From Neptunitalea lumnitzerae (lineage in GTDB: Bacteria; Bacteroidota; Bacteroidia; Flavobacteriales; Flavobacteriaceae), in NCBI RefSeq assembly GCF_027924185.1, contig NZ_BRVO01000001.1:744001-808000 (forward strand): a stretch of 64,000 bases of DNA. The letters run 5' to 3'. The notes below the pieces were generated by a model. That model did no database searches. It was not told the origin of the DNA and saw nothing but the letters and a program-made list of their open reading frames with translations. The position numbers and the translations under genes are program-made. Positions 17,900 through 48,876 of this stretch are shown one piece after another (the first letter of the stretch is position 1; the number at the start of each line of letters is the position of its first letter).

Positions 17900-17955
17900 T
17901 TGTTTTATTGAAAAATCTTTAATTACTTTGAAAGTGTAAAATTCACATTTATTAA
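17900..17955 (+). promoter_or_regulatory. susC1 promoter with candidate AraR operator
   Basis: A -33 TTG (17900-17902) and a -7 box TACTTTG (17924-17930) match the layout at susC2. Exactly 1 nt after the -7 box lies AAGTGT (17932-17937), 7 nt, ACATTT (17945-17950), then ATTAA. The near-palindromic core would cover the transcription start, the expected place for a repressor. The same core recurs at 22821, 38896 and 48849. Confidence 0.7.
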
Positions 17956-17976
17956 GCTAACCAAATTTTAATTATT

Positions 17977-20900
17977 ATGATCACAATAGCTAGGTTATTG
18001 GGAAGCAAGAAAGAAGGTTTTCAATTATGGAAATTAGTATGTCTTGTTTCTTTTGTGGTATCAGGGTTTAGTATGCAGGCACAGAATACTATTACTGGTA
18101 CGGTTATCTCCGGGGAAGATCAAAGTCCACTTCCGGGAGCAAGTGTCATGGTTAAAGGCACATCTGTAGGGACTTCGACAGATTTTGATGGAAATTATAG
18201 TATTAACGTAAACAAAGGCGATGTACTAGAATTTGCGTATGTAGGTTTCGTTACTCAAGAAATCGTTGTAGGAGATGCTTCGGTAATTAATGTTACTTTA
18301 GAGGTAGATGCTACAACGTTGGATGACGTGGTGGTTATTGGATACGGTGCTAAAAAGAAATCAGATTTAACTGGTTCGGTTGCCGTTGTAGAGGTTGAAG
18401 AAGCAAAAAAGAACATTACGCACGATGTAGCTAAAATGCTTCAAGGACAGGTTGCCGGGGTTACGGTACAGTCTTCTGGGGAACCGGGAGGTTTTGTAAA
18501 CCTTAAAATACGTGGTATTTCTTCGTTCCGTAATAATAATCCTTTGTTTGTTATTGATGGGATGTTAGTAGACAACCCTTATGATTTCGCCCCTGGTGAA
18601 ATTGAATCTATTCAAGTACTAAAAGATGCATCTTCTGCTGCCATTTATGGTGTTAGAGGGGCTAACGGGGTAGTTATTATTACTACTAAAAAGGGTAAAG
18701 AAGGTAAGTTAAGCGTTAAGCTTAAATCTATGTATGGTTTTCAAACGGTACCAAAAGAAATACCGCTTACAGACCGTGTAGGGTACCAAACTATTACCAA
18801 CGCTGCTTACATAAATTCGGGTCAGTCTATCTTACCAGGTAACGACCCATCAAGTAGTTATTTTATTGATGATGTAGATACTGATTGGCAAGATGCTGCT
18901 TATACTACAGGTGAAGTACAGAACCATTCGGTTTCTTTTAGTGGTGGAGCAGAGAGCCTTACCTATAACATGAACTTAGATTATTTTAAAAACTCAAGTT
19001 ATGTAGATACGCCTCAAGATTATGAACGTTTATCTACTATAATTAATCTAACGGGTGAAAAAGGTAAATTTAAGTATGGTGCTAAAGTAGGATATACAAG
19101 TTCTGACAAAGAGAACTTTAATGAGTATTTAGCAGGTACTTCGTCTGTTATTAACTTATTACAAGCCATTCCTACGATGCCGGTATACGATGAAAACCGT
19201 TTAGGCGGGTATGGAGGTACCGATAACTTTACGCAACGAGCTATTACCTTAAACGTTATTGGTTTCAATAGATTGTTAGAGAATACTACTGAACGTAAAA
19301 GGTTTATAGGTAATGTTTGGACTGAGGTTGAGGTTTTAAAGAATTTAAAATATACTTTTAGAGCTAGTGCAGACCGTTTAGATGAAATGAACAGACTATA
19401 CAACCCTGAAAGTGATTTAGGATGGTACTATATTACCACAGCTGATGAAGCATCTTTAAACGTTAATAATTATGCACAAACAACTACTATTTTAGATAAC
19501 TTATTAAATTATGATATAGAAGTTGGAAAGCATAAAATAGGTGCATTAGCAGGGGTTATTCAACAACGTGTTAAAAATTATAACCACTGGTCTAGAGGTG
19601 TAGGATATTCTTATGGTACCATACCTCATTTAGAATATGCAGACTCTCAGTCGGCAGGGGAATATGAAGATGAAATTACTACGTTATCTTACCTAAGTAG
19701 ATTAGATTATTCGTTTGATGATACATATATGTTAACCTTTAACTTCAGACAGGATAAATCATCATTATTTACAAAGAAAAACAATGCGGGTAACTTTTTC
19801 TCTTTCTCAGCAGGATGGAAACTTCACAAAACTTTTGAGTTGCCAGAATGGTTTAGTACGTTAAAATTAAGAGGAGGTTACGGTGAGTTAGGTAATAATA
19901 CTATTGGTGTATACGAGTGGTATAACCGTGTGAACTCTTTTGCTAGTTATGATTTTAACGATGAGTTAGCGCCAGGTACTACCGTTGTAGAAATTACAGA
20001 TTCTGATATTAGATGGGAGGTAACCACTACCACTAATGCTGCATTAGAATTCGGAATGTTTAAAGATAGGCTTACTTTTACTACTGAATATTACTTAAAA
20101 ACTTCTGATGATTTATTAGCGGATGTTCCGTTACCTTATTCAGTAGGTGTTGTGCCATTAAGCATAACTACTAATGCTGCAAAAGTTAGAAACAGTGGTT
20201 TTGAATTTGCAGCAACCTATCAAGATAATCCATCTGAAAATTTCGGATTTAGTGTTTCTGCAAACATAGGTACTTTAAAGAATGAAGTATTAAGTATTGG
20301 AGATGATGATTTACCAATCTATGGGGTAAACTCTAAAACGGAAGTAGGACGATCTATTGGGGAACTTTTTGCTTATGAAACTGAAGGGTTATTCCAAAGT
20401 CAGGATGAAATTGACAATCATGCATTTCAGTCAGGAGCACAGCCAGGGGATGTTAAATTCCGTGATGTAAATGGTGATGGTTTAATTACTGATGACGATA
20501 GAACATTTCAAGGGGTTACCATACCTAAAATTAGCTATGGTTTAAACTTTTCATGTAACTATAAAGATTTTGATTTTTCTATGTTCTGGCAAGGTGCGGC
20601 GGGGCATAAGATATATAATGGTACTTATAACTCGTTAATGATTGGAGGATTATTAAACCACCATGAAGATATGTTAAACTTCTGGACTCCAGATAATACC
20701 GATACCAATATACCAAGGCCAGATGTATTAGAGATTAACCAAAATGCAAGAGCATCTGATCGTTTTATTGAAAAAGGAGATTACATTAAACTTCAAAATG
20801 TTCAGATAGGATATACACTTCCTTTAAACGAGAACAAGTATGTTAAGAGAGCTAGAGTCTACGCTCAAGGTCAAAACTTATTCGCAATTACCGGATATAG

Positions 20901-21009
20901 AGGTTATGACCCTGATTTTATGAGTGATGGATTATTTTCTAGAGGGTACGATTTCGGATCGTTCCCGAATCCTAGAACCGTTTCACTTGGTGTAGAAGTT
21001 GATTTTTAA
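17977..21009 (+). CDS. SusC/RagA-type TonB-dependent transporter, first arabinan pair
   Basis: This 1010-residue outer-membrane transporter imports oligosaccharides together with the SusD protein encoded next. After a signal peptide (cleavage near MQAQNT) come a carboxypeptidase-like domain (about 38-115, GTVISGEDQSPLPGASVMVKG) and a TonB-box-like segment DDVVVIGYG. The plug follows (about 145-235, with GQVAGVTVQSS, IRGISS, VIDGMLV and IYGVRGANGVVIITTKKG), and then the barrel, ending at VSLGVEVDF. The last aromatic residue fits outer-membrane insertion. Its 5' end and promoter are strikingly like those of the second susC. The likely substrate is arabinan oligosaccharide, judged from the locus. 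Confidence 0.95.
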   Translation: MITIARLLGSKKEGFQLWKLVCLVSFVVSGFSMQAQNTITGTVISGEDQSPLPGASVMVKGTSVGTSTDFDGNYSINVNKGDVLEFAYVGFVTQEIVVGDASVINVTLEVDATTLDDVVVIGYGAKKKSDLTGSVAVVEVEEAKKNITHDVAKMLQGQVAGVTVQSSGEPGGFVNLKIRGISSFRNNNPLFVIDGMLVDNPYDFAPGEIESIQVLKDASSAAIYGVRGANGVVIITTKKGKEGKLSVKLKSMYGFQTVPKEIPLTDRVGYQTITNAAYINSGQSILPGNDPSSSYFIDDVDTDWQDAAYTTGEVQNHSVSFSGGAESLTYNMNLDYFKNSSYVDTPQDYERLSTIINLTGEKGKFKYGAKVGYTSSDKENFNEYLAGTSSVINLLQAIPTMPVYDENRLGGYGGTDNFTQRAITLNVIGFNRLLENTTERKRFIGNVWTEVEVLKNLKYTFRASADRLDEMNRLYNPESDLGWYYITTADEASLNVNNYAQTTTILDNLLNYDIEVGKHKIGALAGVIQQRVKNYNHWSRGVGYSYGTIPHLEYADSQSAGEYEDEITTLSYLSRLDYSFDDTYMLTFNFRQDKSSLFTKKNNAGNFFSFSAGWKLHKTFELPEWFSTLKLRGGYGELGNNTIGVYEWYNRVNSFASYDFNDELAPGTTVVEITDSDIRWEVTTTTNAALEFGMFKDRLTFTTEYYLKTSDDLLADVPLPYSVGVVPLSITTNAAKVRNSGFEFAATYQDNPSENFGFSVSANIGTLKNEVLSIGDDDLPIYGVNSKTEVGRSIGELFAYETEGLFQSQDEIDNHAFQSGAQPGDVKFRDVNGDGLITDDDRTFQGVTIPKISYGLNFSCNYKDFDFSMFWQGAAGHKIYNGTYNSLMIGGLLNHHEDMLNFWTPDNTDTNIPRPDVLEINQNARASDRFIEKGDYIKLQNVQIGYTLPLNENKYVKRARVYAQGQNLFAITGYRGYDPDFMSDGLFSRGYDFGSFPNPRTVSLGVEVDF

Positions 21010-22669: not shown

Positions 22670-22788
22670 TTTGCATTCTATTGTAAACATAATACTTACA
22701 GTAGTGAACGTTGTAGTAAGAGTATTCTTTGGTAATTACGTTTTTAATATTTTGCAACTGTTAAAAGTTAAGATTTTGTAAAAATTAT

Positions 22789-22844
22789 TTGTTTTATTAT
22801 AAAATCTTTAAGTAATTTGGAAGTGTAAAAATTACATTTATTAA
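22789..22844 (+). promoter_or_regulatory. susC2 promoter with candidate AraR operator
   Basis: TTG (22789-22791) and TAATTTG (22813-22819) repeat the susC1 promoter layout with identical spacing. The core AAGTGT (22821-22826), N7, ACATTT (22834-22839) again starts 1 nt after the -7 box. The sequence inside is TGTAA-AAA-TTACA, a perfect small palindrome. Similarity to the susC1 promoter continues through the leader GCTAACCAAATT into the first codons. Confidence 0.7.
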
Positions 22845-22865
22845 AGCTAACCAAATTAATTTATT

Positions 22866-25800
22866 ATGATTGCAATAGTTAGGTTATTGAAAAGCAACAT
22901 AGCTAACTTTCGAGTATGGAAGTTTTTATGTGTTGTTTTTTTCATGGTATCGGCTTATGGTATGCAAGCGCAAACCACTATAACTGGTACAATTATCTCA
23001 GGAGAGGACGATAGTCCACTGCCTGGAGCGAGTGTTATGATTAAAGGTACCTCTACAGGTACTTCTACAGATTTTGATGGTAATTATTCTCTTAGCGGTG
23101 TAAACCAAGGTGATGTGCTTGAGTTTTCATACGTGGGGTTTATTACTAAGGAAATAACAGTAGGCACAGAAACTGTTATTAGTGTTACTTTAGAGGTAGA
23201 TGCTACAACGTTGGATGATGTAGTTGTGGTTGGTTACGGAACTCAGAAAAAAGAACAAGTAACCAGTTCGGTTGCCTCAGTTTCTTCAGAAGAGTTTGTA
23301 ACTCCAGCTGGTTCATCAGATGTAGGATCATTAATCCAAGGTAAAGTAGCGGGGGTGAGTATTGTACAAAATAGTGGAGATCCTACAGCGGGTACCCAAG
23401 TAAGATTAAGAGGTACTAGTACACTTTTAGGAACCAACACTTCACCATTAGTAATTATTGATGGGGTTCCTGGAGATTTTAATACTGTGGCACCACAAGA
23501 TATAGAATCTATTAGTGTGTTAAAAGATGGTTCTGCTGCGGCTATGTATGGTACACGTGGTACCAATGGGGTTATTTTAGTTACTACCAAAAGAGCTTCT
23601 GGTTCTTATGATAGTAAAGTAACTTATTCTGCTTCTGTGAGTACACAAGAGTTTGTGAGAACACTTGATATGCTTAGTGCTCAAGATTATCGTGATCAAG
23701 TTGCGGCTGGTACTAGACCAATAGCTGGTGCTGCTTCTGATTTAGGATATGATACTGATTGGCTAGATGTTATTACAAGAACTCCTATTTCTCATACACA
23801 TAATGTTACTTTTAGAGGAGGAGATTTTAAAACTAACTACTTGGCAACTGTAAATGTTAGAGAGTTAGAAGGAATGTTTTTGAAGTCTGATAATAAAATT
23901 TTAACAGGTAGAGTAGATATTAACCATAGTATGTTTGATGATAAATTACGCTTCAACTTTGGTTATTTAGTAAGAGGTAGAAATTTCACAACTACAGCAG
24001 ATGGGGGTAGTTTTAACGGATACACTTATCGCCAAGCATTGATTAGGAATCCTACCTCACCCGTAAGACATGAAGATGGTTCTTGGGATTCTAATGAACT
24101 TGGAGAAGTGGGTAATTTTAACTATGAGAATCCACTAGGAAGAATCAAGGAATCTGATGGTAGGAACAAGAGTAACTTTACTCGTTTAAATAGTAGAATA
24201 GATTATAATCCTTTTGATGGGTTGAAGTTATCGGCTCTTTTATCACTATCAAGATATAATGAGACCAGAGGATATTATGAAACCAAAAATCACATTTCTA
24301 ATATCAGAGATGGTGTAAATGGATATGTTTCTAATGGTACTTTAGAAACAGAAGATAAGTTAATGGAGCTAACAGCTCAGTACAGTAAAACTCTTGGAGA
24401 GCATGATTTTACTGTTCTAGGTGGATATAGTTATCAGAGCTTTTATAACCATAATTATTGGATGTCTAATACTGATTTTCAAACGGATATTTTCGGTTTT
24501 GATAATATAGGTTTAGGGTTAGGTCTTGCAGAAAATAAAGCCAGAACAGGTATTGGAAGTTTTACCTCTATGACAAACTTAATAAGTTTCTTTGGAAGGT
24601 TGAATTATGCATATAAAGATAAATACTTGTTACAAGCTAGTTTACGTTATGAGGCAGCTAGCCAATTGTATAAAACAGAAGATCCATGGGGAGCTTTCCC
24701 TGCAATTTCTGCAGGATGGAGAATTTCTGAAGAAGACTTTATGAAAAGTGTAAAGTTTATCAGCGATTTAAAAGTAAGAGTTGGTTATGGGGTTACAGGT
24801 ACTCCTAATAGTGATGGTTTTGGAGCAGTTGCTTTATTAGGTTACAGCGATCCTTTCTACTATGATGGAAATTGGATTAGAACCTTAACGCCTACTCAAA
24901 ACCCGAATCCATATTTAAAATGGGAAGAAAAACATGAAACCAATATTGGTTTAGATTTTGGCTTGTTCGATAATTTTATTACTGGTAATATAGATTACTA
25001 CCAACGTAATATTAAAGATTTATTATACGATTATCAGGTGCCAGTACCACCAAACTTTGTAAGTACTACACGTGCTAATGTGGGAGAGATTTCTAATAGT
25101 GGTTTAGAGGTATTGATAAATGTAAATGCCATACAAACTGAAGATTTTGAATGGACCACAAGTGTTAACTTTTCTACTAACAAAAGTAAGTTAGAGCAAT
25201 TGTCTAATGATTTATACCAAGCACAGCAAGATTATTTTTATACAGGGGCAACAGGTGAGCCAATTCAACAGACAACACATATTGTACAAGTAGGGCAACC
25301 AATTGGAAACTTCTATGGGTTTAAAGTAGTAGATGTTGATGATGAGGGAAGATGGATTTATGAAGATGCTGATGGAACACTTAAAAATTATGATGAGTTT
25401 GGAAGAGGATATGAAAACATGCAGGTGTTAGGTAATGGGTTGCCAAATTACTACGCAGGTTGGAACAACAGTTTCAAGTATAAAAACTTTGATTTAAGTG
25501 TTACTATGCGTGGTGCTTTTGATTATCAGATTATTAATTATAATAGAATGTATTTAGAAAATCCAACGTTAACTCAGTATAATCGTTTGGCATCTTCTAA
25601 GGAACCTGTTTTTGGAAAGACACAATTAACTTCACCACAAGAGTTTAACAGTTATTACGTAGAAGATGGTGATTTTTGGAAAATAGATAACATAACCTTA
25701 GGATACAATTTAGGTGAACTAGGAAAATACATCAGTTCTGCTAGGGTATATGTTACTACTTCAAATACTTTTTTAATAACTGGATATAAAGGAATTGATC

Positions 25801-25898
25801 CGGAGGTGAATTTTGGAGGTCTTTCTCCTGGTGTAGATAGTAGAGATACGTATCCAACAACAAGAAATTTCACTTTAGGTTTTGATGTTTCTTTTTAA
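22866..25898 (+). CDS. SusC/RagA-type TonB-dependent transporter, second arabinan pair
   Basis: This is a second 1010-residue SusC-type transporter with the same domain order: signal peptide to MQAQTT, carboxypeptidase-like domain (GTIISGEDDSPLPGASVMIKG), DDVVVVGYGTQKKEQ, plug (GKVAGVSIVQN, VRLRGTSTL, MYGTRGTNGVILVTTK) and barrel ending FTLGFDVSF. The N-terminal 120 residues are much closer to the first SusC than the barrels are, so the pairs probably bind different arabinan fragments. This gene opens the long enzyme operon; susD2 begins 10 nt after its stop. Confidence 0.95.
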   Translation: MIAIVRLLKSNIANFRVWKFLCVVFFMVSAYGMQAQTTITGTIISGEDDSPLPGASVMIKGTSTGTSTDFDGNYSLSGVNQGDVLEFSYVGFITKEITVGTETVISVTLEVDATTLDDVVVVGYGTQKKEQVTSSVASVSSEEFVTPAGSSDVGSLIQGKVAGVSIVQNSGDPTAGTQVRLRGTSTLLGTNTSPLVIIDGVPGDFNTVAPQDIESISVLKDGSAAAMYGTRGTNGVILVTTKRASGSYDSKVTYSASVSTQEFVRTLDMLSAQDYRDQVAAGTRPIAGAASDLGYDTDWLDVITRTPISHTHNVTFRGGDFKTNYLATVNVRELEGMFLKSDNKILTGRVDINHSMFDDKLRFNFGYLVRGRNFTTTADGGSFNGYTYRQALIRNPTSPVRHEDGSWDSNELGEVGNFNYENPLGRIKESDGRNKSNFTRLNSRIDYNPFDGLKLSALLSLSRYNETRGYYETKNHISNIRDGVNGYVSNGTLETEDKLMELTAQYSKTLGEHDFTVLGGYSYQSFYNHNYWMSNTDFQTDIFGFDNIGLGLGLAENKARTGIGSFTSMTNLISFFGRLNYAYKDKYLLQASLRYEAASQLYKTEDPWGAFPAISAGWRISEEDFMKSVKFISDLKVRVGYGVTGTPNSDGFGAVALLGYSDPFYYDGNWIRTLTPTQNPNPYLKWEEKHETNIGLDFGLFDNFITGNIDYYQRNIKDLLYDYQVPVPPNFVSTTRANVGEISNSGLEVLINVNAIQTEDFEWTTSVNFSTNKSKLEQLSNDLYQAQQDYFYTGATGEPIQQTTHIVQVGQPIGNFYGFKVVDVDDEGRWIYEDADGTLKNYDEFGRGYENMQVLGNGLPNYYAGWNNSFKYKNFDLSVTMRGAFDYQIINYNRMYLENPTLTQYNRLASSKEPVFGKTQLTSPQEFNSYYVEDGDFWKIDNITLGYNLGELGKYISSARVYVTTSNTFLITGYKGIDPEVNFGGLSPGVDSRDTYPTTRNFTLGFDVSF

Positions 25899-25908
25899 AA
25901 AAAAAACA

Positions 25909-27540
25909 ATGAAAAAATTAAACACATATATAGGAAAAAGTTTGGTAGTGCTAATGGCGTTATTAATGGGGTCATGTACCGAACTTGAAAACGAAAATTA
26001 TAGTGCAATCATTTCAGCGGATTTTCAACCAACAGAAGATGATGTGGCTGCACTTTTAGGGGCTGCTTATGTAAATTGGAGAGAAACCTTTTTATTATGG
26101 AACGGTGTTTGGCGTGCTCAAGAAGCAACAGCCGATGAAATTATTATACCAGGGAGACCTAATGGATGGGTTGATGGAGGTATATATAAGCGAATGCATC
26201 AACACACTTGGTTAAATCAGGATGATATTGCATATCAATCTTGGTACAGAACCTATGAAGGGATTTCTAACTGTAACCGTTTGATATTTCAGATTGAAGA
26301 CGGAGCTATTCCAGTTACGGATGAGCAGCGTGTAGCAATGCTAGCGGAACTTAAAGTATTAAGAGCTTCATTTTATTACATTTTATTAGATGTTTATGGT
26401 AATGTAGCTTATAGTATAGATTATGATGTGCCGGATGGGTTTGTACCAGAGCAATTAACACGTGATGAAACCTACAATTTTATAGTTTCTGAAATAACAG
26501 AAAATATCGATGATTTAGATGAAACTAATGGTCAGGCTTATTATGGTCGATTCAACAAATGGGCAGCGTATACTTTATTGGCTAAAGTATATTTAAATGC
26601 AGAGGTATATACGGGTACTTCGCATTGGGATGACTGTATTGCTGCTTGTGATATGGTAATCAATTCTGGTGAGTTTTCATTAGAAGCTGTGCAAAAGAAT
26701 GTGTTTATCACAGAAAACGAGAATTCTTCTGAAATTATTTTTGGATTGGCTATAGATAACGAGTATACAAAGCAGTGGAATCAGTTTGATATTCATATGC
26801 AAACACTTCAGCCTAACAACCAATTAACCTATGATTTAGCGGCTACACCATGGGGAGGTATGTGTGCAACACCACAGTTTATTGATACGTTTGATCCGGA
26901 TGATTTACGTTTAACGGAAAACTTTATTTACGGACAACAATATTCTTCTTCTGGAGATCCTATCGATTGCTCACTTGGAGCTTATGCTGGCCAACCTTTA
27001 GCATATATAAATGAAGTACCTAGTATTGATACATCTGAAGAAATCCATGGGTATCGTTTCGGGAAGTTTGAAATAGCAATGGGGACTAATAATATTTTAA
27101 GTAATGATTTCCCATTATTTAGATATGCTGATATTTTAATGATGAAAGCTGAGTCATTACTTAGAACAGGGGATGCAGATGGGGCTGCTGCTTTAGTTAC
27201 AGAAGTGAGACAAAGAGCTTTTGCAACAACCGATCCAACTAAAGCTACTGTTACAGGAGCTGAGTTAATGCAAGGAAGTGTATATGACTATGGTTTACGT
27301 GATAATACTCAACAAACCTATGAAGGGGGTGCAGATATTCAGTACGGTAGATTTTTAGATGAATTAGCTTGGGAGTTTAACCAAGAGGGTAGAAGAAGAC
27401 AAGACATGATTCGTTTTGGTGCTTTTACTACCAAATCATGGTTCTCACATTCAGCTAGTGATGCTACTAAGCAGTTATTACCAATACCGCAACAAGCGAT
27501 ATTAACAAATGGAAATTTAACTCAGAATCCTGGGTACTAA
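25909..27540 (+). CDS. SusD-like surface glycan-binding lipoprotein, second pair
   Basis: This 543-residue lipoprotein is the partner of SusC2. The ATG at 25909 is chosen because it starts a proper lipoprotein signal (MKKLNTYIGKSLVVLMALL, lipobox MGSC, Cys23). An upstream in-frame start would overlap susC2 and spoil the signal. SusD hallmarks are FPLFRYADILMMKAESLLRTGD, LAWEFNQEGRRRQDMIRFG and the terminal LTQNPGY. The central region has little in common with SusD1, consistent with a different ligand. Confidence 0.94.
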   Translation: MKKLNTYIGKSLVVLMALLMGSCTELENENYSAIISADFQPTEDDVAALLGAAYVNWRETFLLWNGVWRAQEATADEIIIPGRPNGWVDGGIYKRMHQHTWLNQDDIAYQSWYRTYEGISNCNRLIFQIEDGAIPVTDEQRVAMLAELKVLRASFYYILLDVYGNVAYSIDYDVPDGFVPEQLTRDETYNFIVSEITENIDDLDETNGQAYYGRFNKWAAYTLLAKVYLNAEVYTGTSHWDDCIAACDMVINSGEFSLEAVQKNVFITENENSSEIIFGLAIDNEYTKQWNQFDIHMQTLQPNNQLTYDLAATPWGGMCATPQFIDTFDPDDLRLTENFIYGQQYSSSGDPIDCSLGAYAGQPLAYINEVPSIDTSEEIHGYRFGKFEIAMGTNNILSNDFPLFRYADILMMKAESLLRTGDADGAAALVTEVRQRAFATTDPTKATVTGAELMQGSVYDYGLRDNTQQTYEGGADIQYGRFLDELAWEFNQEGRRRQDMIRFGAFTTKSWFSHSASDATKQLLPIPQQAILTNGNLTQNPGY

Positions 27541-27560
27541 TTATAGAATAACAAGAATAG

Positions 27561-27590
27561 CTTATGGCAAGTAATGCTACTTGCCATAAG
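27561..27590 (+). terminator. intercistronic stem-loop after susD2
   Basis: A perfect 13-bp stem (CTTATGGCAAGTA / TACTTGCCATAAG) with loop ATGC lies between susD2 and the first GH51 gene. No T-run follows, so full termination is unlikely. Partial attenuation or protection of the susC2D2 mRNA 3' end is more likely. Confidence 0.6.
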
Positions 27591-27620
27591 ATTATTCAAT
27601 AACATAAAAACATCATACAT

Positions 27621-29168: not shown

Positions 29169-29176
29169 GAAACGAA

Positions 29177-30790: not shown

Positions 30791-30800
30791 CGAATACAAA

Positions 30801-31802: not shown

Positions 31803-31806
31803 ACTC

Positions 31807-32802: not shown

Positions 32803-32803
32803 G

Positions 32804-36881: not shown

Positions 36882-36902
36882 CACAAGCATAAATATAAAT
36901 AA

Positions 36903-38895: not shown

Positions 38896-38938
38896 AAGTG
38901 TAAAAAATACATTTATTAAAGAAAGAGCCTTATATTTG
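38896..38938 (+). promoter_or_regulatory. araB promoter with candidate AraR operator
   Basis: TATATTTG (38931-38938) is a perfect TAnnTTTG box 32 nt before the araB ATG. The core AAGTGT (38896-38901), N7, ACATTT (38909-38914), then ATTAA lies upstream of it, over the place of the -33 element. At the other sites the core lies just downstream of the -7 box. Binding here would block sigma-factor access to -33. Read-through from the GH51 gene would bypass this control in part. Confidence 0.7.
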
Positions 38939-38970: not shown

Positions 38971-40662
38971 ATGAAAAAATATGTGATAGGATTAGACTAT
39001 GGATCAGACTCAGTTAGAGCGGTATTGGTAGATGCTCAAAACGGAGCTGAACTAGCATCTGAAGTTCATTGGTACCAAAGATGGAAAGAGAAGTTATACT
39101 GTAATCCGGGTATAAACCAATTCCGTCAGCACCCATTAGACCATATAGAAGGATTAGAAAATACGATAAAAGCAGTTGTTACTACCAGTGGGGTAGCACC
39201 TGAAAGTGTAGTAGGTATTTGTATTGATACAACCGGATCTTCTCCGGTACCTGTTACCAAAGACGGAACACCATTAGCATTGGTAGATGGGTTTAAAGAA
39301 AACCCTAATGCTATGATGATTCTATGGAAAGACCACACAGCTATTAAAGAAGCAAATGAAATTAATGAGTTGGCTGAAAGCTGGGGAGGAGAAAATTACA
39401 CCAAATACGAAGGTGGTATTTACTCATCTGAGTGGTTTTGGGCAAAAATTTTACGCATTGTAAGAGAAGATGAAGCTGTAATGAATGCTGCTTACACTTG
39501 GATGGAGCATTGTGATATTATGACTTACATTTTAGCAGATCATAAAGATTTAGATACCTTTAAAAGAAGTAGATGTGCAGCAGGGCATAAAGCTATGTGG
39601 CACGAGAGCTGGGATGGCTTGCCATCGGAAGAGTTCTTAGGAAAGTTACACCCATACTTGGCGGAATTAAGAAGTAACCTGTATAAAGATACCTTTACTT
39701 CTGATCAGGTGGCAGGACATTTGAACGAAGAGTGGGCTGCTAAACTTGGCTTAACCACAAACACGGTTATTGCAGTAGGTACATTTGATGCACACTCAGG
39801 TGCCGTAGGTGCTAAAGTAGATGAAAGAGCTTTGGTACGTGTAATGGGTACTTCTACTTGTGATATTATGGTGTCGTCTACAGATGAATTAGGAGATACG
39901 TTGGTAAAAGGTATTTGTGGTCAGGTTGATGGATCAGTAATTCCTGGAATGGTTGGTTTAGAAGCTGGTCAGTCTGGTTTTGGAGATGTATTAGCATGGT
40001 TTAAAGATGTACTTTCTTGGCCAATAGATAATTTAGTAATGGCGTCTTCTGTACTTTCTGAAAAACAGAAAGCAGAATTAGCAGAAGAAATTAATGCAAA
40101 TTTCATTAGAACGTTAGCAGAGCAAGCAGAGAGCATTCCGTTAACAGAAGCTATTCCAACAGCATTAGACTGGGTAAATGGTAGAAGAACTCCAGATGCC
40201 AATCAGGAATTAAAGAGTGCTATGTCTGGTATTTCATTAGGTACCAAAGCACCTCATATTTTTAAAGCATTGGTAAATGCTATTTGCTTCGGTTCTAAAA
40301 TGATTGTAGATCGTTTTGAATCTGAAGGAGTTAAAATAGATACTGTAATTGGTATTGGTGGTGTTGCACGTAAATCTCCGTTTATTATGCAAACCTTAGC
40401 AAATACATTAAACATGCCAATTAAAGTTGCTGCTTCTGACCAAGCACCAGCTTTAGGAGCTGCTATTTATGCAGCAGTAGTTGCAGGTATTTACCCTAAT
40501 GTAATTGAAGCTAGTAAAGTATTAGGTAGTGATTTTGAAGCAGAATATTACCCACAAGCAGATCAGGTAGAAACCTATAAGAACCTATTTAGTGATTATG
40601 CACAATTAGCAACCTTTATAGAAACCTTCACAAAATCTAAAAATTATGAGTTCCAAGTATAA
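38971..40662 (+). CDS. araB: L-ribulokinase
   Basis: This 563-residue FGGY-family kinase phosphorylates L-ribulose to L-ribulose 5-phosphate. The N-terminal ATPase signature is VIGLDYGSDSVRAVLVDAQNG and the ribulokinase-type ICIDTTGSSPVPV follows. GTFDAHSGAVGAKV and VMGTSTCDIM mark the sugar/ATP cleft, and the C-terminal adenosine region is IGIGGVARKSPFIMQTLAN with ALGAAIYAAV. The length is normal for AraB and longer than xylulokinases. It opens the catabolic operon araB-araD-araA-mutarotase-symporter and overlaps araD by 17 nt. Confidence 0.96.
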   Translation: MKKYVIGLDYGSDSVRAVLVDAQNGAELASEVHWYQRWKEKLYCNPGINQFRQHPLDHIEGLENTIKAVVTTSGVAPESVVGICIDTTGSSPVPVTKDGTPLALVDGFKENPNAMMILWKDHTAIKEANEINELAESWGGENYTKYEGGIYSSEWFWAKILRIVREDEAVMNAAYTWMEHCDIMTYILADHKDLDTFKRSRCAAGHKAMWHESWDGLPSEEFLGKLHPYLAELRSNLYKDTFTSDQVAGHLNEEWAAKLGLTTNTVIAVGTFDAHSGAVGAKVDERALVRVMGTSTCDIMVSSTDELGDTLVKGICGQVDGSVIPGMVGLEAGQSGFGDVLAWFKDVLSWPIDNLVMASSVLSEKQKAELAEEINANFIRTLAEQAESIPLTEAIPTALDWVNGRRTPDANQELKSAMSGISLGTKAPHIFKALVNAICFGSKMIVDRFESEGVKIDTVIGIGGVARKSPFIMQTLANTLNMPIKVAASDQAPALGAAIYAAVVAGIYPNVIEASKVLGSDFEAEYYPQADQVETYKNLFSDYAQLATFIETFTKSKNYEFQV

Positions 40663-41350
40663 GTCGTTAAAAGAAGAATGCTACGAAGCTAATATGCAAT
40701 TAGACGCATTAAAGTTAGTAGTATATACATTTGGTAATGTGAGTGCTGTAGACAGAGCTAATGGCGTATTTGCTATTAAGCCAAGTGGGGTGCCTTATGA
40801 AATTTTAAAACCTGAAGATATTGTGATTCTAGATTATGATAACAATATTATAGAGGGTACTATGCGCCCTTCTTCAGATACTAAAACACATGCTTATTTA
40901 TATAAAAACTGGGAAAACATAGGTGGTATTTCTCATACCCATGCTACGTATTCTTGTGCTTGGGCACAATCGCAATTAGATATTCCAATTTTTGGTACTA
41001 CCCATGCCGATCATTTAACGGCAGACATACCATGTGCGCCACCAATGAGTGATGACCTTATTCAAGGGAACTATGAGCATAATACTGGAATTCAGATTTT
41101 AGATTGTTTCAAAGAAAAAGGACTTTCTTATGAAGAAGTAGAAATGGTGTTGTTAGGGAATCACGGACCTTTTACTTGGGGTAAAAATGCAGCAAAAGCA
41201 GTGTATAACTCTAAAGTTTTAGAAACCGTTGCAGAAATGGCCTATTTAACACGCCAAATTAATCCGCAAGCACCAAGATTAAAAGATTCATTAATTAAAA
41301 AACATTATGAGCGTAAGCATGGTAAAGATGCCTATTACGGTCAGAATTAA
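40646..41350 (+). CDS. araD: L-ribulose-5-phosphate 4-epimerase
   Basis: This 234-residue class II aldolase-like epimerase converts L-ribulose 5-phosphate to D-xylulose 5-phosphate, which feeds the pentose phosphate pathway. The zinc ligands are clear: His97 and His99 in GGISHTHATYS and His173 in LLGNHGPFTWG. The Asp at 78 (PSSDTKTH) corresponds to the fourth conserved position in E. coli AraD. The phosphate-binding GNVSAVD and IKPSGVPY motifs are present. The start codon lies inside araB, implying translational coupling. Confidence 0.97.
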   Translation: MSSKYKSLKEECYEANMQLDALKLVVYTFGNVSAVDRANGVFAIKPSGVPYEILKPEDIVILDYDNNIIEGTMRPSSDTKTHAYLYKNWENIGGISHTHATYSCAWAQSQLDIPIFGTTHADHLTADIPCAPPMSDDLIQGNYEHNTGIQILDCFKEKGLSYEEVEMVLLGNHGPFTWGKNAAKAVYNSKVLETVAEMAYLTRQINPQAPRLKDSLIKKHYERKHGKDAYYGQN

Positions 41351-41376
41351 CATATTAAAACAAACAAAGAAGTAAG

Positions 41377-42867
41377 ATGATTGATATTAGTTCAAAAGAG
41401 GTTTGGTTTATAACCGGTAGCCAACACCTTTACGGTCCTGAAACCTTAGCACAGGTAGCAGAACACTCAACAGAGATAGCACAAGCGTTAGATGCATCTA
41501 GCCTTATCCCTGTAAAAGTTGTATTTAAACCAACTGTAAAAACTACAGAAGAAATATACGAAACACTAACAGCAGCTAACCAAGAGAAAAATTGTATTGG
41601 TGTTATTACATGGATGCATACATTTTCTCCTGCTAAAATGTGGATTAGAGGATTATCTGCTTTACAAAAGCCGTTGTTACACTTACATACACAATACAAT
41701 AGAGACATTCCATGGAATACAATGGATATGGACTTTATGAACCTGAACCAAGCAGCGCACGGTGACCGTGAATTTGGTTTTATGGTAAGTAGATTACGTA
41801 AAAACAGAAAAGTAGTTGTTGGGCACTGGGCACAAGAGTCTGTACAGGCTAAAATTGGAGCTTGGACACGTGTTGCTTTAGGATGGGATGACTGGCAAGG
41901 TGCTAAGTTTGCTCGTTTTGGAGATAACATGCGTTTTGTTGCGGTAACCGATGGAGATAAAGTAGAAGCTGAAACTAAATTTGGTTTTTCTGTAAACTCT
42001 TACGGTATTGGAGATTTAGTATCGTTAATTGATGCGGTTACTGATGAGCAAGTAGCAGAATTAATTAAAGAATATGAAGCTTCTTATAAAATGGCTGAAG
42101 ACCTTTTAGAAGGTGGAGCAAAAAGACAATCGTTAGTAGATGCTGCACGTATTGAGCTTGGTCTTGAGAAGTTTTTAGTTGATGGCGGATTTAAAGGTTT
42201 TAGTGATACGTTTGAAGATTTATATGGTATGAAACAATTACCAGGTATTGCTGTACAACGTTTAATGGAAAAAGGATACGGATTTGCAGGTGAAGGTGAC
42301 TGGAAAACTGCTGCTTTAGTACGTGCCATGAAAGTAATGGGACACGGACTTGAAGGTGGGAATGCTTTTATGGAAGATTATACCTATCATTTAGACCCTT
42401 CTGCTCCTAGAGTTTTAGGTTCTCACATGTTAGAGGTAGACCCAGTGTTAGCTGCAGAGCAACCTTCTTGTGAGGTACACCCATTAGGAATTGGTGGTAA
42501 AGAAGACCCAGTGCGTTTGGTATTTAACGGTAGAGCAGGAGATTCTTTAAATGCTGCTTTAATGGATTTTGGTAACCATTTTAGATTATTGGTTAACAAA
42601 ACTAGAGGAGAAGAGGTAAAAGAAGAGTTGCCAAAATTACCAGTTGCAAGAGTAATGTGGGAGCCACTTCCTAATTTTGAGGTAGGTTGTACTGCATGGA
42701 TTTTAGCGGGTGGTGCACACCATACTTGCTATAGTGAAAATGTTACTGCAGAACAGTTAGAAGATTTTGCAGAAATAGCAGGAATTGAATATCTTGTGAT
42801 TGATGAAGATACTAAACTATCTGATTTCAAAAACACATTACGTTGGAACGATAAGTTCTATAGATAA
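41377..42867 (+). CDS. araA: L-arabinose isomerase
   Basis: This 496-residue enzyme interconverts L-arabinose and L-ribulose, the first intracellular step. Family features include [60 protein letters not shown]-type sequence, the glutamate segments [12 protein letters not shown] and FMEDYTYH, and the C-terminal [10 protein letters not shown]. Length equals that of E. coli AraA to within a few residues. It lies 26 nt after araD. The gene order B-D-A differs from the E. coli B-A-D order and is common in Bacteroidota. Confidence 0.98.
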
Positions 42868-42884
42868 ACTAAACTAACATTATT

Positions 42885-44066
42885 ATGAAAACTTTAAAAT
42901 TGGGTGCATACCTTTTACTTTTTAGTTTTCTGTTTTTAAATGTAGGTTGCGAAAAAACAACTAATAAAAAAGAGGAAACTTCTGAGGTACAAGATGCACC
43001 AAAGAAGTTTCCTATTACCAAAGTAGATTACGGTACAACTCCTGAGGGTGAAAAAATTGAGAAATTTACCCTTAAAAATGCAAATGGTATGCAAATGGAG
43101 GTAATTACATTTGGTGGTATTATTACTTCTTTAACCGCGCCTGATAAAGACGGAAAATTGGAAGATATTGTATTAGGTTACACTACTCCTGACGATTATT
43201 TTAACGGAAACCCTTATTTCTTTGGAGCTGCCATTGGTAGATACGGAAACCGTATTGCCAAAGGTAAATTTTCTTTAGATGGTACCGAGTATCAACTAGC
43301 TACCAATGATGGACCTAACCATTTGCATGGTGGTAAAAAAGGGTTTGATAAAAGAATATGGACCATTACTCCGGTAAAAGATGCGGAGAGTCCAACATTA
43401 CAACTTACTTATGTAAGTAAGGATATGGAAGAAGGTTATCCTGGTACGTTAACTACAACGATAACGTACACTCTTACGGATGAAAATGCACTAGAGATTT
43501 CTTATGAAGCTACTACAGATAAGAAAACCGTAGTGAACCTTACACAACATTCATACTTCAATTTATCTGGTAATTTTAATACTATTTTAGATCACGAGTT
43601 ACAGTTAGATGCCGATAAAATGTTACCGGTAGACAATACCTTGATTCCAACTGGAGAACTAGCAGATGTTGCTGGTACACCTTTTGATTTTACCACTGCA
43701 AAAGAGATCGGAAAAGATATCGATGCAGCTGATGATCAATTGAAAAAAGGTTTAGGATACGATCATTGCTGGGTGTTTAATGGAAATGATAAGTCATTTA
43801 GAAAAGTGGGTTCATTATACCATAAAGCCTCTGGAAGATACATGGAAGTTTTTACAGACCAACCAGCTATTCAGTTTTATAGTGGTAATTTCTTAGATGG
43901 TACTAAGAAAAGTAAAAATGGCGGTATGTACGAACAACGTTCAGGGTTGTGTTTAGAAACACAACATTACCCAGATTCTCCTAACCAACCTGCATTTCCT
44001 TCAACAGTGCTAAATCCCGGAGAAAAGTATTTTACAAAAACGACGTACAAATTTTCAGTGAAATAA
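42885..44066 (+). CDS. galM: aldose 1-epimerase (mutarotase), lipoprotein
   Basis: This 393-residue GalM-family enzyme speeds interconversion of sugar anomers. A lipoprotein signal (lipobox NVGC, Cys about 22) sends it to the periplasm, where GH enzymes release arabinose as defined anomers. Catalytic features are the histidines in GPNHLHGGKKG and VNLTQHSYFNLSG and a glutamate in SGLCLETQHYPDSPNQP. It sits between araA and the symporter, so it probably supplies the anomer the transporter takes. Confidence 0.94.
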   Translation: MKTLKLGAYLLLFSFLFLNVGCEKTTNKKEETSEVQDAPKKFPITKVDYGTTPEGEKIEKFTLKNANGMQMEVITFGGIITSLTAPDKDGKLEDIVLGYTTPDDYFNGNPYFFGAAIGRYGNRIAKGKFSLDGTEYQLATNDGPNHLHGGKKGFDKRIWTITPVKDAESPTLQLTYVSKDMEEGYPGTLTTTITYTLTDENALEISYEATTDKKTVVNLTQHSYFNLSGNFNTILDHELQLDADKMLPVDNTLIPTGELADVAGTPFDFTTAKEIGKDIDAADDQLKKGLGYDHCWVFNGNDKSFRKVGSLYHKASGRYMEVFTDQPAIQFYSGNFLDGTKKSKNGGMYEQRSGLCLETQHYPDSPNQPAFPSTVLNPGEKYFTKTTYKFSVK

Positions 44067-44082
44067 AATTTAAATTATCAAT

Positions 44083-45969
44083 ATGAACGGAGGATTTCAG
44101 CCCTTAGATTATGGGATATTTATAGGATACGTGATTTTAATTGCGGCTTTAGGATTATTTATTTCCAGAGATAAAAAAGGAACAGAGAAAAATTCTAAAG
44201 ATTACTTTTTAGCAGGAGGAACGTTATCATGGTGGGCTATTGGTGCTTCACTTATTGCGGCAAATATTTCTGCAGAGCAGTTTATTGGTATGTCTGGTTC
44301 TGGGTATGCAATTGGTTTAGCAATTGCTGCTTATGAGTGGATTGCAGCCGCTGCTTTAATTATTGTGGCAAAGTACATTTTGCCAATTATGTTAGATAAA
44401 AAAATATATACCATGCCTCAGTTGGCAAGAGAACGTTACGGAAAAGGTGTTGCCTTTTTCTTCTCTTTCTTCTGGTTATTGGTATATGTGTTTGTAAACC
44501 TTACTTCGGTAGCTTGGTTAGGAGCCACAGCTATGGAACAAATTTTAGGGGTAGATAAAACGTATGGGGTAATTGGACTGTTATTATTTGCAGGTGTTTA
44601 CTCTATTTATGGTGGACTTAAAGCGGTGGCTTGGACCGATGTTTTACAAGTTGTATTTCTTGTAGGGGGTGGTTTAATTACAGCTTGGTTTGCTCTTGCT
44701 GCTATTAGTGATACTGGTAGTGCTATTGACGGATTTAACTTAGTATACCACAAAGTGGTTTCTACGCCAGACGATGTGCATTTTAGTATGATTATTGAGC
44801 AAGGTAAAACAATGATTTCTGATGGTACCGGTGGCCAGAAAGATCCGTTTATAGACCTTCCTGGTGTTGCGGTTATCTTAGGTGCTATGTGGTTAACCAA
44901 TTTAGGATATTGGGGTTTCAACCAGTATATCATTCAAAAAGGATTGGCTGCTAAAAACTTAAAAGAAGCAAAAAGAGGTTTATTATTTGGAGCTTACTTA
45001 AAAATATTAATTCCACTTATCGTTGTAATTCCTGGTATTGCAGCTTACGTTATTTTTGCGCATCAAGGAGACTTCCCTGAGTTAACATCACATTTACAAG
45101 GTACTATTGAAAAATCTGATGAGGCATACCCATGGTTACTTAGAAACTTTGCGCCTACAGGTATTAGAGGTTTAGCATTTGCTGCCTTAATTGCTGCAGT
45201 AGTTTCTTCGTTAGCATCTATGCTTAACTCTACTTCTACCATTTTTACTATGGATATTTATAAAGAGGTAATTAATAAAAATTCTTCTGAAAGAAACTTA
45301 GTAAAAGTGGGGCGTATTTCTGCTTTAGTTGCTTTAATAATTGCCATGTTTACAGCAAAACCATTATTAGGTGGTTTAGACCAAGCATTCCAATACATAC
45401 AAGAGTTTACAGGCTTTATTTATCCTGGTGTAGTGGTTGTATTTGGTATGGGATTATTCTGGAAACGTGCTTCTAACAGAGCAGCTCTTTGGACAACCAT
45501 TGCAACGTTGCCAACTTCAATTATATTAAAGTTTGCAGCTTCAGATGTACCGTTCCAGTTCCGTATGGGCTATACTTGTGTAATACTTATTACGCTAGCC
45601 GTAGTACTTACATTAACAGATAAAAACAGAGTACCAGCTACTCCGGTTTCTGATCAGAAAGCGAAACAATTTAAATTGGCAGGACTAATTTTTGCAGTGT
45701 TGGCTGTTGCAGCTGCTCTGGTAACATTAGTGTTTGGTACACCATTCTTTGGTATAGACCTAAGATTTATGGGGTATGAATCTGCTATTTTATTAGTGTT
45801 CTTATTTGGTTTCTTAGCGCTTATGATGTACAACAATGCTAATTGTACATTCCAAGATGAGAAAGCTTATGAAGTTGATACGGAGTTATTTAAAACCGAT
45901 AAAACCTTCTTTATGGGGGCTATGGGTATAGTTGTTATCTTAGTAGCTTTATACGGTTACTTCTGGTAA
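44083..45969 (+). CDS. sodium/sugar symporter (SSS/SLC5 family), probable L-arabinose importer
   Basis: This 628-residue inner-membrane protein has about 14 hydrophobic segments. SSS-family marks include DYFLAGGTLSWWAIGASLIAANIS-type sequence near residue 45, EQFIGMSGSGYAIGLA, YSIYGGLKAVAWTDVLQVV and the conserved serine-rich FAALIAAVVSSLASMLNS near residue 375, which holds sodium ligands in characterised members. Its place as last gene of the ara operon behind a mutarotase indicates arabinose as substrate. An intrinsic terminator follows. Confidence 0.95.
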   Translation: MNGGFQPLDYGIFIGYVILIAALGLFISRDKKGTEKNSKDYFLAGGTLSWWAIGASLIAANISAEQFIGMSGSGYAIGLAIAAYEWIAAAALIIVAKYILPIMLDKKIYTMPQLARERYGKGVAFFFSFFWLLVYVFVNLTSVAWLGATAMEQILGVDKTYGVIGLLLFAGVYSIYGGLKAVAWTDVLQVVFLVGGGLITAWFALAAISDTGSAIDGFNLVYHKVVSTPDDVHFSMIIEQGKTMISDGTGGQKDPFIDLPGVAVILGAMWLTNLGYWGFNQYIIQKGLAAKNLKEAKRGLLFGAYLKILIPLIVVIPGIAAYVIFAHQGDFPELTSHLQGTIEKSDEAYPWLLRNFAPTGIRGLAFAALIAAVVSSLASMLNSTSTIFTMDIYKEVINKNSSERNLVKVGRISALVALIIAMFTAKPLLGGLDQAFQYIQEFTGFIYPGVVVVFGMGLFWKRASNRAALWTTIATLPTSIILKFAASDVPFQFRMGYTCVILITLAVVLTLTDKNRVPATPVSDQKAKQFKLAGLIFAVLAVAAALVTLVFGTPFFGIDLRFMGYESAILLVFLFGFLALMMYNNANCTFQDEKAYEVDTELFKTDKTFFMGAMGIVVILVALYGYFW

Positions 45970-46058: not shown

Positions 46059-46059
46059 G

Positions 46060-46813: not shown

Positions 46814-46835
46814 TTTGTACCCTTATTATAAAGTT

Positions 46836-46872: not shown

Positions 46873-46903
46873 AATTACAAATGTGTTTGGGAAAAAGAGC
46901 GGG

Positions 46904-48835
46904 TTATATTTTTATAACAAAGCCTCCGTAGGGTTGCATTGTTATGGTTGTTTCGGTATTAGAAATTTCCGTTTGTTCAAATTTGGTTGAAGTACCATCG
47001 GTAATCATATAGCCATTTTTAGAAGGTATAAAGCTCAAGTCAATGGTCATTTCCTTCACTTTATTTTCTCCATTAATACCTGTTATAAACCAGGTTTCAC
47101 CTTTTCTACGGGCAATAATAGCATCTTTACCAGGGTAGCCTGCTAGGTACTTAGATTGGTCCCAATCGGTAGGGATGTCTCTTAAATAATTTTTTACATA
47201 CTCAGGCATTTTAGCCATTCCATTGGGTGTTTCTGCAATATGTTGAATGCCTGATAAAAACAACGTAGGCAGTGCAAGTTCAAAGGCAGCTGTGGTTCTA
47301 CGGTGTATACCCGGTATGGTATCTAATGCCATAGGGGTAAAGTCCATAGGGTCAAATAAGTTTCTGGTATAGGGCAGCATTGCACAATGGCTCGGAGCTT
47401 CATCTGCATCTGGTTGTCCAAAGCTTATAAACTCAAAACCTTTAATGGCTTCCATAGTCATTAAATTAGGATAGGTTCTTTGCCAGCCTCTAGGTAATGT
47501 AGTACCATGAAAGTTTACTAGTATATGGTGTTTTGCAGCACTAGTTAATATCTGGTGGTAATACTCCATATAAGATTGTCCGTCTCCTCCAAAGAAATCT
47601 ATTTTAACACCACCAATACCCCAATCACTTAATTTTTTAAATTCAGCTTCTCTTTTTTCAGCCGTGGTAAATCTGTCTTTAGGCTCGTACGGGGTAGTGT
47701 TCCAGTCACCTGCAGAGTTGTACCATAAAATAAGTTGTACATTTTTTTCTTTACCATAGGCTACAAGTTCTTTAATTCCGTCATCGCCTATTCTGGTATC
47801 CCAATTAACATCTATTAAGCAATAGCCCCAATTCATATCGGCAGCATAGTCAATAAACTCTTTGGTAATATCGTAAGTTATAGAGTCGTCTTTTAAAATA
47901 GCCCAACTCCAAGAAGCTAATCCGGGTTTAATATAATCGGTATCTTCTGTAATGGCTGGTTTGGCAAGGTCGGTACCTAAAGTAGAGTTGGTAACGGTTT
48001 CTAAGGTACCTAGTGCAATAACGCGCCAAGGTGTTTCCCAAGGTAATTTAGATTCTGGGTTAAGAGCCCCATCGGTCATTTTTTCTTCCGGTTGCGGAAA
48101 TGTAAGTTTCAGTGCTTTATCTTCTTTGCTATATTTTAAATGTGACCCGGCATAGTTGGCTTCTAAATGAGTTTCGGTAATTGCCGCCCACATATTCTCA
48201 GCAGTATTAAAAAGAGCAGGATATATCCAACCTTCTCCAATATCTGATGGAGTATCTACACTAATTCCTTTCTTATAATGTTCCTCGTACGATGGATTAG
48301 TATGTTCCCAACCAGTTTTAGCTTTGGCTAGAGGCTGTAACCATGCTTTCGTGTTTTCCGGAAAGTTAAAAGTGGTTTTTTCATCGGTAATATATTTTAC
48401 ATCTTCTGAAGATTCAGGAAAAACATATTTAAAACCAAGTCCATCATTAGAAACACTAAACACAATCTGTAGTTGCTGTTCATGTTCATTAACCAAGGTA
48501 ATGGTTTTTTGGTTGGCTGTGTATGTAATATTACTTTGTTTCCCGTGAGTTAAGGTATAGGTGTCTTCTATTTTTGATATATCTGAAAACGACTGCATGG
48601 ATAGCTTAGATGCAAAATTTTCATCTTTACGCTCTAAACCAAGTACAGAGGTATCAATAACCACTTGGTTATTTTTATAAACTAAATAATATGCGGTAGA
48701 ATCCTTCTTAATCCCTGTATGTACGCTAATACTCTCATCAGGGCTTTCAATGGTGGTAGAAGGCTTAGAATTTTCAGGAGGACAACAGGATGCTAGTAAG
48801 ATACATAGCAAACCTTTTATCGCGATATTTTTCAT
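46904..48835 (-). CDS. GH97 retaining glycosidase lipoprotein (alpha-galactosidase / beta-L-arabinopyranosidase type)
   Basis: This 643-residue lipoprotein (lipobox LLASC, Cys17) has the GH97 order: N-terminal beta-sandwich, (beta/alpha)8 barrel, C-terminal beta domain. Nucleophile Asp413 in GGVKIDFFGGDGQ and a likely acid/base Glu462 in MTMEAIKGFEF place it in the retaining branch, not the inverting SusB-like alpha-glucosidases. Retaining GH97 enzymes include alpha-galactosidases and a bifunctional beta-L-arabinopyranosidase/alpha-galactosidase. Galactose and L-arabinopyranose differ only by the C6 group. The upstream copy of the putative AraR operator points to the arabinose role. It is on the opposite strand from the main locus. 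Confidence 0.9.
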   Translation of the reverse strand: MKNIAIKGLLCILLASCCPPENSKPSTTIESPDESISVHTGIKKDSTAYYLVYKNNQVVIDTSVLGLERKDENFASKLSMQSFSDISKIEDTYTLTHGKQSNITYTANQKTITLVNEHEQQLQIVFSVSNDGLGFKYVFPESSEDVKYITDEKTTFNFPENTKAWLQPLAKAKTGWEHTNPSYEEHYKKGISVDTPSDIGEGWIYPALFNTAENMWAAITETHLEANYAGSHLKYSKEDKALKLTFPQPEEKMTDGALNPESKLPWETPWRVIALGTLETVTNSTLGTDLAKPAITEDTDYIKPGLASWSWAILKDDSITYDITKEFIDYAADMNWGYCLIDVNWDTRIGDDGIKELVAYGKEKNVQLILWYNSAGDWNTTPYEPKDRFTTAEKREAEFKKLSDWGIGGVKIDFFGGDGQSYMEYYHQILTSAAKHHILVNFHGTTLPRGWQRTYPNLMTMEAIKGFEFISFGQPDADEAPSHCAMLPYTRNLFDPMDFTPMALDTIPGIHRRTTAAFELALPTLFLSGIQHIAETPNGMAKMPEYVKNYLRDIPTDWDQSKYLAGYPGKDAIIARRKGETWFITGINGENKVKEMTIDLSFIPSKNGYMITDGTSTKFEQTEISNTETTITMQPYGGFVIKI

Positions 48836-48848
48836 TATGGTTATCTAT

Positions 48849-48876
48849 AAGTGTTTTGTGAACATTTATAAATATA
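48849..48876 (-). promoter_or_regulatory. GH97 promoter with candidate AraR operator
   Basis: On the minus strand TATATTTA (48876-48869) is a -7 box one base from consensus. One nt further on comes the core, read on the plus strand as AAGTGT (48849-48854), N7, ACATTT (48862-48867). The spacing between -7 box and core equals that at susC1 and susC2, although the core is in the reverse orientation, as is possible for a near-palindrome. Confidence 0.6.

Follow-up and report, generated by a model that had tools for sequence, protein, structure and literature searches.

A candidate AraR regulon linking arabinan and pentose genes in Neptunitalea lumnitzerae

Genes and candidate operators of the locus

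A 64-kb stretch of contig NZ_BRVO01000001.1 of Neptunitalea lumnitzerae (64,000 nt, hereafter the window) carries araR, a gene for an NrtR-family regulator that clusters here with arabinose genes, and four copies of the motif AAGTGT-N7-ACATTT, at the promoters of susC1, susC2, araB and a GH97 gene. An earlier note on this DNA had taken these copies to define a candidate AraR regulon. We consider it very probable that the adjacent AraR has its operators at these four sites and through them coordinates arabinan and pentose genes; AraR binding, repression and arabinose induction are what we infer for them. The features concerned are the following.

17061..17747, minus strand: araR, NrtR-family arabinose repressor with a degenerate Nudix domain and a winged helix (Pfam, phmmer, residues)
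17923..17930, plus strand: imperfect -7 box of susC1, TTACTTTG, ending 1 nt before the operator
17932..17950, plus strand: candidate operator 1 (susC1), AAGTGT-AAAATTC-ACATTT, predicted span about -3 to +16
17977..21009, plus strand: susC1, TonB-dependent receptor (family match)
21030-22601: susD1, after susC1
22812..22819, plus strand: weak -7 box of susC2, GTAATTTG, with the TTTG half only, ending 1 nt before the operator
22821..22839, plus strand: candidate operator 2 (susC2), AAGTGT-AAAAATT-ACATTT, in a promoter homologous to that of susC1
22866..38888, plus strand: presumed arabinan-degradation operon (family matches) with susC2, susD2, GH51, three GH43, a CBM4_9/arabinofuranosidase-like protein, GH127 and GH51-like
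38896..38914, plus strand: candidate operator 3 (araB), AAGTGT-AAAAAAT-ACATTT, predicted at about -47 to -29, over the -33 region
38931..38938, plus strand: perfect -7 box of araB, TATATTTG, beginning 35 nt after the operator start
38971..45969, plus strand: presumed operon of araB (ribulokinase), araD, araA, aldose 1-epimerase and SSF symporter
46904..48835, minus strand: GH97 enzyme, under the NCBIfam cut-off for retaining alpha-galactosidase
48849..48867, minus strand: candidate operator 4 (GH97), AAATGT-TCACAAA-ACACTT in gene direction
48869..48876, minus strand: -7 box of GH97, TATATTTA, ending 1 nt before the operator

The earlier note placed araR beside the first site. The open reading frame (ORF) at 17061-17747(-) matches the Pfam families NrtR_WHD (7.3e-24), NUDIX (4.4e-12) and AraR_C (5.8e-10), with an N-terminal Nudix-like part and a C-terminal NrtR/AraR winged helix, and a phmmer search of the PDB matches it to BtAraR (BT0354) of Bacteroides thetaiotaomicron (5bs6, E 7.7e-70). 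We take residue functions in BtAraR, and its numbering, from PMC4666351, which is cited in part throughout. The Nudix signature is degenerate in window AraR, where REUXEEXGU reads RVLRHLTGL and the three E are replaced by V, H and L. The L-arabinose contacts R34, R86, H131, Y5, F36, G47, G48, F49 and F129 are kept, while T replaces V92, as it does in most of 80 relatives from other genomes (the best 80 of 587 confirmed matches). Kept on the DNA side are D178, K179, R180 and N181. In a tree of 30 rows, drawn with a midpoint root and comprising BtAraR, 25 AraR rows (query included) and four NrtR paralogs, BtAraR joins the 25 AraR rows, apart from the four paralogs of this genome, with support of 94/90 and with long-branch warnings. 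By family, residues and tree we assign the window regulator as an AraR ortholog. One relative, 65% identical to window AraR, is encoded on a contig (L042) that is titled as a Rickettsiales metagenome-assembled genome and is probably mis-binned.

According to PMC4666351, K179, R180, N181, K184, K204 and R205 are absolutely conserved across the AraR orthologs of Bacteroides and Prevotella, the genera that this account covers. Among the 80 relatives, position 184 is N in 32, K in 19, S in 16 and R in 13, and it is N in window AraR; position 205 is K in all 80 and in window AraR, whose position 204 is R. For K184, K204 and R205 the reported invariance fails outside the published set, and we do not take these three contacts as defining AraR.

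Four further NrtR homologs are encoded in the same genome, with recognition helices reading DKPNF, NRGNF, DVRNF and DRSRF as compared to DKRNF in AraR, and they lack the K179-R180-N181 set. One of them (44% identical to AraR, helix DKPNF) adjoins, at C4:82282-84938 (L099), a GH43 gene whose product has a beta-xylosidase-type C-terminal domain; the two are a candidate XylR pair. At C2:535847-537373 (L093), two NrtR paralog genes are adjacent and convergent, and AAATGT-N7-ACATTT lies ∼225 nt upstream of one.

The motif in the window, the genome and relatives

Exact AAGTGT-N7-ACATTT occurs in the window, on the plus strand, at 17932, 22821, 38896 and 48849, which are the four copies and the 7-nt gap that the earlier note had described, and 100 dinucleotide-preserving shuffles of the window contain no exact copy. 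When two mismatches are tolerated, the window yields 19 matches against a mean of 16.1, which is chance level, so the signal resides in the exact core. ATTAA indeed follows three of the copies, as also claimed, though the promoters of susC1 and susC2 are homologous, with 81 of 98 aligned positions identical between 17882-17976 and 22771-22865; because of this homology we count the two sites as one event and not as independent. In the alignment of the SusC1 and SusC2 proteins, 348 of 1075 columns match, so that a common promoter and leader cassette stands before genes whose products are only ∼32% identical, which suggests promoter copying or conversion between them.

Across the 3.85-Mb genome the exact motif has 11 copies, as compared to 1 for the pattern read backward, and the form AARTGT-N7-ACAYTT occupies 15 places, as compared to 5 for the same kind of control. 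Letting the gap take any length from 3 through 11 nt raises the total to 52 places (control 39); N7 accounts for 15 of these and the remaining eight spacings share 37, none of them exceeding 8 among the matches listed (50 of the 52). A genome scan was one of the refuting conditions set by the earlier note, and the candidate regulon comes through it, in that 9 of the 15 N7 places stand before genes related to pentoses: susC1, susC2, araB and GH97, plus five outside the window, as follows.

TalC-type gene: site 82 nt away; Pfam TAL_FSA, above the NCBIfam cut-off for fructose-6-phosphate aldolase
Transketolase N-terminal subunit gene: site 106 nt away
Two GH43 protein genes: sites 50 and 54 nt away
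SSF (sodium) symporter gene: site 118 nt away

Since the TalC-type protein combines TAL_FSA with a match above the fructose-6-phosphate aldolase cut-off, a transaldolase activity can only be presumed for it, and pentose substrates are likewise presumed, from family, for the two GH43 enzymes and the symporter.

Conservation among relatives was read over the 80 AraR loci, in 252,250 intergenic bases (gene calls being ORFs of at least 90 aa). AARTGT-Nk-ACAYTT is found there 96 times at k=7, and 0, 0, 0, 0, 0, 0, 1, 0 and 0 times at k=3, 4, 5, 6, 8, 9, 10, 11 and 12, respectively; 63 of the 80 loci have a strict N7 site. Nine of 123 target genes of relatives were given to Pfam, which identified an FGGY-family (ribulokinase-like) kinase, SusC, a TalC-type protein, full-length transketolase, SSF, GH51 and two GH127, one of the last at L060. 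Sites precede full-length transketolase at L037 (Flavobacterium) and L061 (Formosa), and a TalC gene at L056.

The idea that the repeated sites arose by duplication of a promoter cassette, or by chance in AT-rich DNA, with no common regulation, draws on the homology of the susC1 and susC2 promoters. But outside the site the araB promoter differs from that of susC1, with which it has 16 of 50 upstream positions in common; spacings besides N7 show no excess, and the position relative to the promoter is kept across different gene contexts (see below); we disfavor this idea and consider it extremely improbable.

The count of sites also follows the regulator. We divided 249 genomes of the family into 35 bearing AraR (E up to 1e-75) and 214 without it: AARTGT-N7-ACAYTT places average 6.9 per AraR-bearing genome (control 3.4) and 3.1 per AraR-less genome (control 2.4), and the differences from control are distinct between the two groups (Mann–Whitney p 8.7e-6). 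This bears on whether the motif might belong to another regulator, either another NrtR homolog, such as one that is XylR-like, or a Crp-type protein, with AraR an incidental neighbor. Candidates exist: the four further NrtR homologs include the 44% identical one beside a GH43 gene, one motif place lies 225 nt upstream of an NrtR paralog, and another has a GH43 gene on one side and the gene of a cyclic-nucleotide-binding regulator on the other. Yet the paralogs lack the K179-R180-N181 set, the excess specific to N7 is found around AraR genes, the presence of AraR predicts the motif counts per genome, and the geometry of the motif equals that of the published BtAraR sites (PMC4666351); another regulator thus seems to us highly unlikely as the owner of these sites.

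Position of the sites in their promoters

In Flavobacterium psychrophilum the -7 box TAnnTTTG spans -12 to -5 of the start site (PMC9723704, cited in part), and from that position the span given above for the susC1 operator is derived. According to the earlier note, the motif core begins 1 nt after the -7 box at susC1, susC2 and GH97. The spacing stands at all three, where TTACTTTG, GTAATTTG and TATATTTA, respectively, are to be compared with TAnnTTTG, but the susC2 box, having the TTTG half only, fails even the relaxed definition T[AT]nnTTT[AG]. The 1-nt rule becomes convincing only once relatives are added. We assembled 105 sites, 96 from the loci and 9 from this genome, of which 78 remain after removal of those at least 60% alike, and counted boxes on either strand, gene direction not being imposed. 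The relaxed box begins exactly at -9 relative to the site in 58 of the 105 sites and in 39 of the 78 non-redundant ones, as compared to a background mean of 2.2 at other offsets among the 78, where the maxima are 12 (offset -38), 9 and 7. Strict TAnnTTTG begins at -9 in 13/78 (background mean 0.3), and the offsets neighboring -9 are nearly empty of boxes. The -9 register is predicted to put the operator at about -3 to +16, over the start site. In this genome TTTR-N-AARTGT-N7-ACAYTT has six exact places, four of them pointing toward susC1, susC2, GH97 and talC. Elsewhere, at C1:243311-243329, the perfectly symmetric AAGTGT-AAATATA-ACACTT has TTTA in the start-site register on the plus strand; a lactonase-family gene 189 nt away is on the opposite strand.

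The araB site lies upstream of its perfect TATATTTG box and is in a register different from that of the other three window sites. In sites of the araB type the box follows the start of the site by 32 to 35 nt, so that the operator falls over the -33 region; in this genome the transketolase site, too, is upstream of its box. A GH43 gene at C2:688948 was rejected as an example of a start-site promoter, the TTTA match being on the strand that points away from the gene. We also dropped, as distinct from disproved, the notion that an arm of the operator itself serves as the -7 box, in the form of TACATTTG at offset +12 (10 of 91 sites). TAnnTTT[AG] is found at +12 in 27/78 sites versus 26/78 at -9, but +12 lies inside the operator and ACATTT supplies most of the letters, which makes the test unfair; with sites aligned toward the target gene, the match looks to be mostly a by-product of the nucleotide before AAATGT.

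These positions help in judging whether AraR might be an activator, or dual-acting, at these promoters and not a pure repressor. The araB site, at about -47 to -29 and upstream of the -7 box, has a position that would suit an activator too. About half of the non-redundant sites, on the other hand, overlap the start site, which leaves no room for activation there, and L-arabinose abolishes DNA binding by BtAraR (PMC4666351), a loss that, taken with an inducible catabolic operon, implies repression. We therefore regard an activating role as quite improbable, and repression as the preferred mode.

The arms of the sites differ with promoter class, when the 78 non-redundant sites are sorted by box position on either strand. 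The start-site class has one ATGT arm in 31 of 37 sites, two GTGT arms in 6 and two ATGT arms in 0; the corresponding numbers are 1, 5 and 1 in the upstream class, 0, 2 and 0 among sites belonging to both classes, and 19, 5 and 8 among sites with no box. Fisher's test of the start-site against the upstream class gives p 0.0008, an exploratory value for classes that were set post hoc and sites that share ancestry, and the only site with one ATGT arm in the seven-site upstream class is the window's own araB site. Because of the shared ancestry, the seven upstream sites and the post hoc classes, the asymmetry is only a lead. It would accord with a promoter-specific plan in which start-site operators are locked 1 nt after the -7 box and have exactly one weakened ATGT half-site, in either arm, while araB-type operators over the -33 region tend to have two strong GTGT arms, the asymmetry tuning affinity from one promoter to the next. 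This plan is tentative, and we think it rather unlikely; if true, a single repressor would induce the genes for import, debranching, catabolism and the pentose-phosphate route in a graded or ordered way. We also asked whether the identity of residue 184 goes with the presence of an ATGT arm and rejected such covariation: proteins with N, with S and with K or R at this position have similar mixtures of arms.

Weight of the evidence, proposed mechanism and known systems

Several findings weigh against AraR operators at these sites. Contacts to DNA known from BtAraR are replaced in window AraR (S163K, R183I, K184N, K200M, K204R, R205K, A207S and A208Y), and 17 of the 80 AraR loci are without a strict site, several of these being short contigs. 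Six of the 15 genome places have no clear pentose link: two are inside ORFs, and four precede genes that show none, their neighbors being a lactonase, a sugar-acetyltransferase-like gene, an NrtR paralog (near) and a contig end (near). Among the nine pentose-linked genome sites, only those of susC1, GH97 and the transaldolase gene (talC) fit the relaxed box toward the gene, while no recognizable box in either register accompanies the site of the SSF gene or those of the two GH43 genes. In the five AraR genomes that are most diverged (54-57% identity), the motif is no commoner than its control, at 1.8 versus 2.0, and a small excess is present in AraR-less genomes as well (paired p 0.0008). A TalC site, finally, is found in only 6 of 30 loci of AraR genomes, 5 exact and 1 with one mismatch.

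The excess in AraR-less genomes is partly traced. Eight such genomes stand out in count, one of them holding a 55% identical AraR homolog just below the cut-off, and we inspected the sites of three of the eight. In one, 8 of 15 places are regularly spaced repeats on a single contig; in G205, all 10 matches are a different palindrome, AAATGTCC-N3-GGACATTT; the third has a mixture of site kinds. The same palindrome accounts for 3 of 9 matches in AraR-less genome G078 (G205 and G078 together being L171-L184), and is a candidate operator or repeat of an unrelated system.

The survey of transaldolase and transketolase genes covered 30 of the 35 AraR genomes, the five most diverged being left out. 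The TalC count is over 30 loci from 29 genomes; five further copies have no locus in it. Split transketolase has 3 exact and 2 one-mismatch sites among 24 loci, and some Flavobacterium loci have the site before full-length transketolase instead (L037, confirmed by Pfam). In an AraR-less control of 30 of the 214 genomes, the N7 site at TalC occurs in 0/30, whereas with one mismatch tolerated other spacings reach up to 3/30, which makes one-mismatch sites weak evidence. We rejected the reading that sites at transaldolase and transketolase genes are general in the family; they are a trait of the clade near Neptunitalea lumnitzerae. Extra TalC copies lie on the araR contig in G127 (adjoining araR), G157 (within ∼5 kb) and G215 (∼15 kb).

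Taken together, the genome scan, the orthology of AraR, the BtAraR-like spacing, the share of AraR loci with a strict site and the AraR-linked counts support the earlier note's interpretation as an AraR regulon. We propose that, when L-arabinose is absent, an AraR dimer would sit on GTGT-N7-ACAY. At susC1, susC2, GH97 and the distant TalC-type gene the operator, starting 1 nt after the -7 box, would cover the start site, and at araB it would cover the -33 region; either position would exclude RNA polymerase (steric repression). Binding of L-arabinose in the Nudix-like pocket would release AraR from the DNA, turning on the uptake and debranching of arabinan together with the catabolism of arabinose and the enzymes of the non-oxidative pentose-phosphate pathway.

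The NrtR-type AraR regulon, known from Bacteroides and Prevotella, would thereby extend to Flavobacteriaceae and neighbors, tying arabinan degradation to pentose-phosphate genes far off on the chromosome. In the portion of the open-access literature searched, no AraR regulon of a flavobacterium is described. The positional rule of an operator 1 nt after the -7 box could help find regulated promoters in Bacteroidota, and DNA-recognition residues reported as invariant are seen to vary while the operator core stays. We view the finding as a sound extension, though no revolutionary one, of the knowledge gained in gut Bacteroides, with the motif almost certainly the site of an arabinose-sensing repressor.

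The closest known system is BtAraR, with structures in PDB 5BS6, 5DD4, 5DDG and 5DEQ and with assayed oligonucleotides AAGTGT-TACTTTT-ACACCC, GAGTGT-ATTTGAT-ACACCA and AAGTGT-AAAAAAG-ACACTT (PMC4666351). The two systems share protein architecture, L-arabinose-contact residues and K179/R180/N181; against these published sites, the N7 spacing and one GTGT half-site of the present motif are equal. Targets in common are araBAD, SusCD, GH51, GH43 and GH97 (PMC4666351). In contrast to the three assayed BtAraR sites, which have GTGT/ACAC in both arms, one arm here is usually ATGT (ACAT, as in all four window sites). K179 touches the first G of each GTGT in the BtAraR crystal structure (PMC4666351), so an A at that position should cost the contact on one side; several further DNA-contact residues are also substituted here. 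BtAraR has tandem sites at araM (PMC4666351), whereas araB has a single operator here. The fixed register after the -7 box is not discussed for BtAraR in the parts of PMC4666351 drawn on, and the words for two members of the regulon here, the TalC-type transaldolase and transketolase, are absent from its main text, supplementary tables aside. XylR (BT0791; PMC3878776, cited in part, and likened here by description only) has the same NrtR family and role in sugar utilization as window AraR, which however groups with BtAraR and keeps R34, while the likely XylR-like paralog has a different recognition helix. The AraR of Bacillus subtilis (GntR/LacI type, PMC4666351) has the same name and arabinose-responsive repression, but its protein architecture is unrelated to that of window AraR.

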